From positions 1-43,775 of the forward strand of contig NZ_WTVS01000049.1 of the NCBI RefSeq assembly GCF_012911005.2: a DNA stretch of 43,775 nt. The letters run 5' to 3'. Shown here piece by piece: positions 3,763 through 25,251 of this stretch. Every line of letters starts with the position of its first letter. Positions within the stretch are counted from its first letter, which is position 1. The notes beneath the pieces are model-generated. The model worked only from the letters and a program-made list of their open reading frames with translations, ran no database searches and had not been told where the DNA came from. Position numbers and translations under genes: made by a program. Source of the DNA: Aromatoleum toluolicum (GTDB lineage: Bacteria; Pseudomonadota; Gammaproteobacteria; Burkholderiales; Rhodocyclaceae).

Positions 3763-4227
3763 TTATTCGACGACGATCTTGCCGTCCATGCCCTGATCCT
3801 TGTGGTCCTCGATCGTGCAGATGACGTCGAACACGCCCTTGTTCACGGTGACGAAGAACAGCTCGACCGCGCCGCCATTCTTGTAGGCCTCGACGGCCGT
3901 GAAGTACGGCGCCTTGATCTCGCCGCCGTGCGGCTTGGGCGTCTGCACCTTGCGCCACGCGACCGACTTGAAGAACTCCGCCGCGGTGTAATAGTGGTCC
4001 TTCTGGCCCACGTTCTTGATCACCAGACGGTACGGCTGGCCGGCCTTGAGCTTGAGGTCCTGCGGCGTGAAGCTGTGCTCGGTGAGTTCTACCGTGATCG
4101 TTTCCATCGCGTCCCAGTTGGCCGCCTTCACGATTGCCGCGGCATCGGCGACCGGCTCGGCGGCGCCTGCCGTGAACGAAGCGGAAAGGATTGCCCCGGC
4201 GACGAGAGTGATAATGGACATGCGCAT
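3763..4227 (-). CDS. Periplasmic cupredoxin-domain protein (proximal gene)
   Basis: A 154-residue protein with a short signal peptide ending near FTAGAA and a cupredoxin domain. The predicted copper ligands are His78 (QKDHYY), Cys137, His142 and Met147 (CTIEDHKDQGM). The region before the Cys loop carries an insertion (about residues 86-118) compared with minimal cupredoxins. The start at 4227 is chosen because GGAG lies 9 nt upstream; ATGs at 4221 and 4260 are alternatives. It is the first gene of a reverse-strand operon with the haem-binding protein and the second cupredoxin, which suggests a small periplasmic electron-transfer chain. Confidence 0.8.
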   Translation of the reverse strand: MRMSIITLVAGAILSASFTAGAAEPVADAAAIVKAANWDAMETITVELTEHSFTPQDLKLKAGQPYRLVIKNVGQKDHYYTAAEFFKSVAWRKVQTPKPHGGEIKAPYFTAVEAYKNGGAVELFFVTVNKGVFDVICTIEDHKDQGMDGKIVVE

Positions 4228-4515
4228 GCGGACTTGCTCCAGGGTAAGCGGGCGACGCATCGGCGCCGGCCCGGTTGGACGATGCCGGATCGGACTGCGT
4301 GCATCGACGACGTGAGTCGCAAGCACGCAGGCATTTGATGACCAGGAAATTGTATCAACTAAATGCAATGACCACGATGACAGACGAACACAACGGACCA
4401 CCCCCTCCGCGTGCAATCGCGGCAACGCACGCGCGTGCACGGGTCGCCGCGCCGCAAGGAGGGTAGAATTCGCCCCAATAACCGCCGGTATTCCGCACCC
4501 GACCACCCGACCGCC
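4228..4515. promoter_or_regulatory. Divergent intergenic region with imperfect palindrome
   Basis: This 288-bp stretch separates the reverse cupredoxin operon from forward maf. It is locally AT-rich around 4331-4370, where GCATTT (4331-4336) faces AAATGC (4361-4366) and TTGAT (4335-4339) faces ATCAA (4354-4358). The two sets of arms are offset, so the palindrome is imperfect. The TTGAT/ATCAA half-sites resemble FNR half-sites, but the 14-nt spacing is wrong for FNR (4 nt). A TAGAAT at 4464-4469 could be a -10 box for maf, but without a convincing -35. Regulatory function is only inferred. Confidence 0.3.
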
Positions 4516-21550: not shown

Positions 21551-22045
21551 TTAAGGCAGTTCGGCCGGATGCGTGAACACGAAGTCCCTGTCCTTCACCG
21601 GCTGGTGGCAGCCGAAACACTCCTGCACGAAGTTCGCGTCCGCGCCGTAAGGCTTCTGTGCCTTGCCGAGCCAGCGCGCAAAGCCCCAGCCACCGGTCGC
21701 GGCGTATTTCGCGCTGTCCTTGACCATGAATTCGGCATGGACGAAATCGCCCGGCGCGAGTGCCGTGTCCCAGCGGTCGTGCTTGACCGCCTTCCACACC
21801 AGCTTGCCGAGGATCGCACCGTCGGGCCACGGATTGGTCCGCCCCTCGCGCGCCGCCTTCGCGGCCGCGTCGTTGCCGAGCACCGCGCGCAGCGTGTTGT
21901 TGTCGGAGCGGTGGTGGACCGCGAGCACCTGCCACTCGCGGTAGCCGTCCGGCAGGGTGATGCCGTTGGGGGCGGGTTCGACCGCGGATGCGGAGGCTGC
22001 GGCGCAAAGCAGGGCGCCGGCCAGCAATGGAAATCGTCTGCTCAT
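21551..22045 (-). CDS. Cytochrome P460 family protein
   Basis: A 164-residue periplasmic protein with signal peptide (LLAGALLCAAASASA) and one c-type haem motif near the C-terminus, CFGCH (Cys143, Cys146, His147). The sequence features of the P460 family are visible (LPDGYREWQV, TNPWPDGAILGKLVWK, FVHAEFMVKD). Family members oxidise hydroxylamine or detoxify nitrogen oxides, and some act simply as electron carriers; the substrate here is unknown. The ATG at 22045 is chosen because it opens the signal peptide. It is monocistronic, with infA upstream on the same strand. Confidence 0.85.
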   Translation of the reverse strand: MSRRFPLLAGALLCAAASASAVEPAPNGITLPDGYREWQVLAVHHRSDNNTLRAVLGNDAAAKAAREGRTNPWPDGAILGKLVWKAVKHDRWDTALAPGDFVHAEFMVKDSAKYAATGGWGFARWLGKAQKPYGADANFVQECFGCHQPVKDRDFVFTHPAELP

Positions 22046-22144: not shown

Positions 22145-22405
22145 TCAGCGGCGGCGCCGCTGCTGCGGGCTCACCGGACCGCGGCCTTCGATGTGGCGGA
22201 AGGTGATGCGCCCCTTGCTCAGGTCGTAGGGCGACAGTTCCAGCGAAACCTTGTCTCCGCACAGGATGCGGATGTGGTGCTTGCGCATCTTGCCGGCAGA
22301 GTACGCAACGAGATTGTGACCATTGTCCAGCGTCACACGGAATCGGGCATCAGGCAGCACTTCGACTACCACTCCACCCATTTCGATCAGTTCTTCCTTG
22401 GCGAT
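22145..22405 (-). CDS. infA: Translation initiation factor IF-1, apparent ATC start
   Basis: IF-1 binds the ribosomal A site during initiation and strengthens IF-2 and IF-3. The protein matches betaproteobacterial IF-1 throughout ([39 protein letters not shown]) with a basic tail. The conserved N-terminus (M)AKEELIEM is encoded, but its first codon is ATC at 22405-22403, with GGAG (22417-22414) 8 nt upstream. The first ATG in frame (22381) lies eight codons later and would remove the conserved KEELIE segment. No in-frame ATG, GTG or TTG is suitably placed upstream. The 86-residue product therefore seems to start at ATC, as infC starts at ATT in E. coli. A sequencing error is the alternative. 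Confidence 0.85.
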
Positions 22406-22428
22406 GACGTCTTCTCCTGGGAAAGGCG

Positions 22429-22462
22429 AAAAAAGAAAAGGCCGGGCTTGTGCCAGGCCTTT
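22429..22462 (-). terminator. Rho-independent terminator of the cold-shock gene
   Basis: On the reverse strand AAAGGCCTGGC pairs with GCCCGGCCTTT around an ACAA loop (22462-22437), followed by TTTTCTTTTTT. It ends transcription of the cold-shock gene just upstream of infA and makes infA separately expressed or dependent on read-through. Confidence 0.88.
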
Positions 22463-22545
22463 CGGGGATGCGTTCCGGAACGGATTCCGGTTACCGGCCC
22501 CGCCTGGGACCGGAGGCGCGGCACTGCTGCCGCGCCGGCGCGGGC

Positions 22546-22752
22546 TTAGTCAGCCGCGCGGATGTTCGACGCCTGCTGGCCCTTGGGGCCGGTCGTCACG
22601 TCGAAAGTGACGCGCTGACCTTCGGCCAGGGTCTTGAAACCCGAACCCTGAATCGCGGAGAAATGCGCGAACAGATCGTCGCCGCCGCTTTCCGGGGTGA
22701 TGAAACCGAAGCCCTTGGAGTCATTGAACCACTTCACAGTACCGTTTGCCAT
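22546..22752 (-). CDS. cspA: Cold-shock protein, CspA family
   Basis: A 68-residue OB-fold nucleic-acid-binding protein that acts as an RNA chaperone. RNP1 (KGFGFITP) and RNP2 (DLFAHFSAI) motifs are present, and the start [17 protein letters not shown] is typical. The length equals the family norm. AGGAAA lies about 10 nt before the ATG. A strong terminator follows. Cold induction cannot be read from the sequence, though the AT-rich leader fits. Confidence 0.95.

Positions 22753-23826: not shown

Positions 23827-25251
<1,425 letters not shown>

Follow-up and report, generated by a model that had tools for sequence, protein, structure and literature searches.

The window analyzed here is a 43,775-nucleotide stretch of the Aromatoleum toluolicum genome (contig NZ_WTVS01000049.1). 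On its minus strand, a cold-shock-domain gene (csp) is followed by infA, which encodes translation initiation factor IF-1, and a terminator-like hairpin lies between the two (Table 1). The genome carries three infA copies, which we call A, B, and C, copy C being the one in the window. Its stop codon ends the coding sequence at 22145. A cytochrome P460 gene lies downstream of infA (21551–22045), and an S-adenosylhomocysteinase gene is found on the other strand (23827–25251).

Read directly, the minus strand runs cccAGGAGaagacgtc and then ATC gcc aag gaa gaa ctg atc gaa ATG ggt, which bears out the initial annotation in placing the IF-1 N-terminus AKEELIEM in frame behind ATC (22405–22403), with GGAG 8 nt upstream. 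In the list of open reading frames with ATG, GTG, or TTG starts, the first such codon of copy C is the ninth, ATG9 (22381–22379), and none occurs between ATC and the in-frame upstream stop. Copy C scores 104.8 bits against the NCBIfam IF-1 profile TIGR00008 (cut-off 61.15; profile positions 1–69 of 69), and E. coli IF-1 (PDB 1ah9) aligns with it from the Ala after the start codon. The version starting at ATG9 still reaches 96.8 bits, a score at which an automatic pipeline could let a truncated gene model pass.

Table 1. Features of the csp–infA locus in the window.
Feature	Positions	Strand	Basis
csp, cold-shock-domain gene, 140 nt upstream of ATC	22546..22752	-	sequence, profile
csp–infA intergenic hairpin, terminator-like (22463-22436), with U-rich tail	22429..22463	-	-17.4 kcal/mol, z -3.91
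Shine–Dalgarno AGGAG, 8 nt before ATC	22414..22418	-	duplex -7.4 kcal/mol
infA, csp-linked copy (copy C), IF-1; 86 codons from ATC, plus stop	22145..22405	-	sequence, ORF list, profile
ATC start codon of infA copy C	22403..22405	-	ATC in 16/16 genus orthologues
ATC and codons 2-9 of infA copy C, ending at ATG9	22379..22405	-	24/27 columns invariant, 16 orthologues

The initial annotation had named the start codons of related genomes as the check on ATC, and the ATC start withstands it. Copy C sits behind csp in 16 of the 17 genomes of the genus, among them that of Azoarcus sp. Aa7, and begins with ATC in every one. Being related, these 16 genomes amount to a single evolutionary event. GGAG is kept in each orthologue, 8 nt upstream of ATC (7 nt in L012), with predicted Shine–Dalgarno duplex energies, computed against a typed anti-Shine–Dalgarno sequence, of −5.9 to −8.9 kcal/mol. 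Across the 16 orthologues, 9 of 40 alignment columns just before ATC are invariant, compared to 24 of 27 from ATC to ATG9. The earlier statement that no ATG, GTG, or TTG is suitably placed also extends to the orthologues, which share no conserved alternative start. Seven of them, including that of the window, have no such codon in frame back to the stop; in the other nine it lies 27 to 288 nt away, at places that differ between species or are common to small subgroups alone. The csp and infA genes run in the same direction in all 16, 138–153 nt apart, and are thus adjacent as expected for an operon; the length of this gap varies, so no upstream frame is conserved. An in-frame start farther upstream was considered and is unlikely, since upstream start codons are unconserved and the gap lengths do not change in steps of three. 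Copy C combines a conserved N-terminus behind an ATH codon with the lack of any conserved usable in-frame ATG, GTG, or TTG, and its rare start, conserved in all 16 orthologues, belongs to the class rejected by IF-3. As judged from these comparisons, ATC is well supported as the start codon of csp-linked infA.

In the 17th genome (G010), no csp-linked infA is among the three infA matches. The best further infA there (L182, on contig C111 near 4084–4347) starts with TTG, shows 73% identity, and has no csp just upstream. Its neighbours are a GGDEF/EAL-type ORF on one side and glycosyltransferase-type ORFs on the other, with ORFs that we take to be queC/queE-like about 3 kb away. Given this different setting and the lack of csp, the TTG copy is taken not to be an orthologue of copy C; a gap in the G010 assembly may hide the csp-linked copy.

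The reading frame of copy C is highly constrained. Among codons 10–80, 60 of 71 (Met excluded) specify one amino acid in all 16 orthologues, indicating strong purifying selection on the protein, and residues 2–8 vary solely by E/D and L/V. With Met and Trp excluded, the amino-acid-invariant codons are identical in DNA at 5/5 positions within codons 2–9 versus 9/60 later (Fisher p 2.4e-4). The ATG-start copy B, compared in 16 genomes, has no such early excess (1/7 versus 5/60); the copy B of G010 (L181) and six broken copies A were left out of the comparison. Copy A, which also starts with ATG, shows milder early freezing in 11 sequences (7/8 versus 25/62, p 0.015, by a cruder all-codon count), so early freezing alone is no proof of a weak-start context.

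The initial annotation did not include the presence of copies A and B. Copy A, the ribosomal-operon copy, precedes what we take to be rpmJ- and rpsM-like genes, to which copy B is unlinked. Copy B starts with ATG in 17/17 genomes of the genus, and 11 of these genomes have an intact copy A, also with ATG. In the remaining six (G004, G006, G007, G008, G011, and G013; L193–L198), frameshifts or stops have made copy A a pseudogene, and the intact infA genes found are B and C, the latter with the same ATC. Since every intact A or B begins with ATG, ATC is no quirk of infA in these hosts, and any feedback would touch part of the IF-1 supply.

The initial annotation had compared copy C with infC, the IF-3 gene known for rare start codons, and the parallel proves stronger than it had proposed, as infC of these same genomes is also ATC-started. 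All 17 genomes of the genus open infC with ATC, and in 16 of them a stop codon lies in frame two codons before it. At 13 other infC loci of the family, the 11 that could be parsed (all except L155 and L163) have ATC in 10 cases and ATA in one. The layouts are alike, with GGAG 9 nt before the infC start and 8 nt before that of infA copy C. Two initiation-factor genes thus share a start of the type rejected by IF-3.

Beyond the genus, this start is rare. A pattern that requires an intact AKE[E/D]-type N-terminus finds ATH-start infA in 16 of 395 genomes of the family, every one in this genus, and in 0 of the 378 other family genomes, 288 of which match the ATG/GTG/TTG form. Over the whole family, 305 of 395 match that form, and 90 match neither form and are uninformative. 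Scans matched 1 of 399 genomes in the order (the own genome) and, with a slightly different pattern, 2 of 398 in the phylum (the own genome and L200), with the canonical form counted for the family only. The L200 match was dropped because its translation is not infA; we take the product to resemble a DsrC/TusE-type protein. Among 80 named relatives, 79 were parsed, giving ATG in 67, TTG in 9, ATC in 2, and GTG in 1; the remaining one, L069, has ATG by eye. Relatives in other genera start infA with ATG or TTG, apart from the one GTG and one further ATC, the two ATC cases being Azoarcus sp. Aa7, a genus member, and a Sideroxydans metagenome-assembled genome (MAG), L045. The latter has an in-frame TGA at −18, and no ATG, GTG, or TTG separates this TGA from ATC; this single MAG is the sole ATH-pattern match in 150 genomes of its family. 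Many TTG-start infA copies occur in the family genera g86, g73, and g90.

We also compared 110 infA loci (L004–L113), of which 106 were parsed (all except L100, L103, L110, and L111). Csp-linked loci start with ATC in 18 cases (one duplicate), ATG in 34 (one duplicate), and TTG in 4; unlinked loci start with ATG in 42, TTG in 8, and ATC in none. In a tree from which the duplicates L034 (= L007) and L052 (= L024) were excluded, the ATC copies of the genus cluster together (SH-aLRT 94). Overall resolution is weak, with 28 of 51 inner branches open. By parsimony, ATC in L045 is apparently a second gain; the best-supported branches alone are compatible with one origin. One MAG record titled Rickettsia typhi (L081) is probably mislabelled, as its csp–infA locus falls among Comamonadaceae and Burkholderiales records.

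We looked for regulatory structure around the start site. The hairpin between csp and infA was not reported by a pattern scan, and a consensus scan found no sigma-70-like promoter between 22000 and 23100. Folds of the Shine–Dalgarno/ATC region show no excess stability over shuffled sequences (z 0.01 for 106 nt including the hairpin; 0.47 for 46 nt), which leaves the hairpin as the one notable structure, and 131-nt folds of three orthologues give two z values near −2 and one of 0.14. The csp product scores best against a CspE antiterminator model, at 115.3 bits, below the cut-off of 120. On visual inspection, csp-linked infA of some other genera (L021, L023, L024, L025, and L045) is likewise preceded by GC-rich arms and a U-rich tail.

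Repression of rare starts by IF-3 is already known. Initiation complexes on noncanonical codons are lost faster in the presence of IF-3 (passages of PMC8266586), and in this way IF-3 autoregulates infC. With its AUU or AUC start, infC is likewise an initiation-factor gene that combines an ATH-type start with a GGAG Shine–Dalgarno sequence; there the gene's own product is the regulator, whereas the presumed regulator of infA copy C, IF-3, is another protein and would act on a single member of a set of up to three infA genes. An extract of PMC5472188 states that in Streptomyces, where infC starts with ATC, IF-3 represses sigR through a GTC start, and that few bacterial genes besides infC have been characterized with a start codon rejected by IF-3. 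Like copy C, sigR is a non-infC gene with a genus-conserved noncanonical start; it differs in codon and gene class, and its control by IF-3 was shown by experiment, whereas for copy C it is proposed by analogy. Chloroplast infA reportedly begins with UUG (PMC9845219, citing Hirose et al. 1999). Like copy C, it is an infA gene with a weak start other than AUG, which there restricts expression; unlike AUC, UUG is a common alternative start, and that gene is organellar.

E. coli has a single infA with an ordinary start, whereas copy C is a paralogue directly behind csp and starts with ATC. IF-1, cold shock, and a Csp protein are nevertheless linked in both, since E. coli infA has a cold-shock transcript from promoter P1 and CspA stimulates its translation in the cold (passages of PMC9947658). 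Also in E. coli, IF-1, IF-2, and IF-3 rise in the cold, and IF-1 strengthens the cold-shock action of IF-3 in selectivity (from part of PMC7873864). Among 61,358 reconstructed AUG starts, a portion of PMC5622118 lists one switch to AUU and none to AUC. Our searches of open-licence papers found no bacterial infA with AUC/ATC or another non-AUG start, and a report elsewhere is possible.

We favor, at a probability of roughly 60%, genuine but weak initiation at AUC that is probably repressed by IF-3, which would place an IF-1 paralogue under the control that governs infC. Support comes from the conservation of ATC, the lack of another conserved start, selection on the frame, and the start shared with infC; from these we infer AUC initiation, IF-3 repression, co-transcription with csp, and a feedback loop. 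In the ancestor of the genus, ATC would have replaced a canonical start, either ATG or the TTG that some relatives use, and then persisted. Initiator tRNA would pair with AUC with a third-position mismatch; initiation should thus be weak and, by analogy with AUU/AUC at infC, rejected by IF-3. IF-1 would then be produced from copy C chiefly at low IF-3 activity per initiating ribosome, in step with infC. IF-1 strengthens the action of IF-3 in start-codon choice, so this synthesis would close a negative loop. Transcription may come from the csp promoter upstream, through a leaky or antiterminated hairpin. The genus-wide ATC in copy C suggests that the output of this IF-1 is held down like that of IF-3.

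A different explanation accepts AUC as genuine and has it keep a spare or cold-shock IF-1 at a steady low level, with no feedback through IF-3 of regulatory importance. Such spare capacity exists, as 11 of 17 genomes have two ATG-start infA genes besides copy C and the rest have one. TTG, another weak start, also recurs in infA (at least 23 copies in the family and 9 of the 79 parsed named relatives), so weak starts may be favored for extra copies. We nevertheless consider constant output unlikely: ATC, unlike TTG, belongs to the class against which IF-3 discriminates and is used by infC of the same genomes, and the single substitution that would restore ATG is seen in 0/16 orthologues. The possibility that ATC is unused and a short IF-1 starts at ATG9 draws on the AAGGA (−5.4 kcal/mol) upstream of that in-frame codon and on the profile match of the shortened protein. 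However, this AAGGA lies ~13 nt from ATG9, its letters are ordinary Ala-Lys-Glu codons that also occur in the upstream-starting copies A and B, and the same stretch in L045 pairs weakly (−2.1). The conserved GGAG 7–8 nt before ATC and the E/D and L/V changes that alone affect residues 2–8 point the same way, as do csp-linked relatives outside the genus, whose ATG or TTG start occupies the position of this ATC. A start at ATG9 is thus quite improbable.

Copy C might instead be redundant, its start decaying by drift toward a pseudogene, and copy A, one of three copies and a pseudogene in 6/17 genomes, sets a precedent for such decay. In those same six genomes copy C is intact with its ATC, which counts against a dying spare; its frame is under strong purifying selection, and a decaying start would be expected to vary between species. 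We regard drift as very improbable. The initial annotation had offered a sequencing error (G read as C) as the main alternative, and the own genome, with 289 contigs and 4.84% contamination, might raise suspicion of an assembly error or a contaminant contig. This is refuted by 15 more assemblies with the same codon, 8 of which comprise ≤10 contigs, and the csp-linked ATC in 16/16 orthologues leaves error a negligible prospect.

The favored reading of weak, IF-3-repressed AUC initiation leads to a broader and more tentative proposal, to which we give somewhat less than even odds. Through an AUC start common to both genes, IF-3 would govern the synthesis of an IF-1 paralogue as well as its own. 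The outcome would be a small regulon of initiation factors that operates by start-codon fidelity and is linked to cold shock through the upstream csp; it would have arisen once in the genus and apparently again in the Sideroxydans lineage. The two other infA copies, which could make copy C dispensable, count against the favored reading. A genus-fixed AUC in an IF-1 gene allows a direct test of whether initiation factors control one another through start-codon fidelity, and paralogues of an essential factor may split into differently controlled copies. Gene callers limited to ATG, GTG, and TTG can truncate genes like infA copy C. The copy C protein also has a fixed Cys at codon 49 (LCGD, 16/16), where the other IF-1 proteins examined have Ala, Thr, Pro, or Met.
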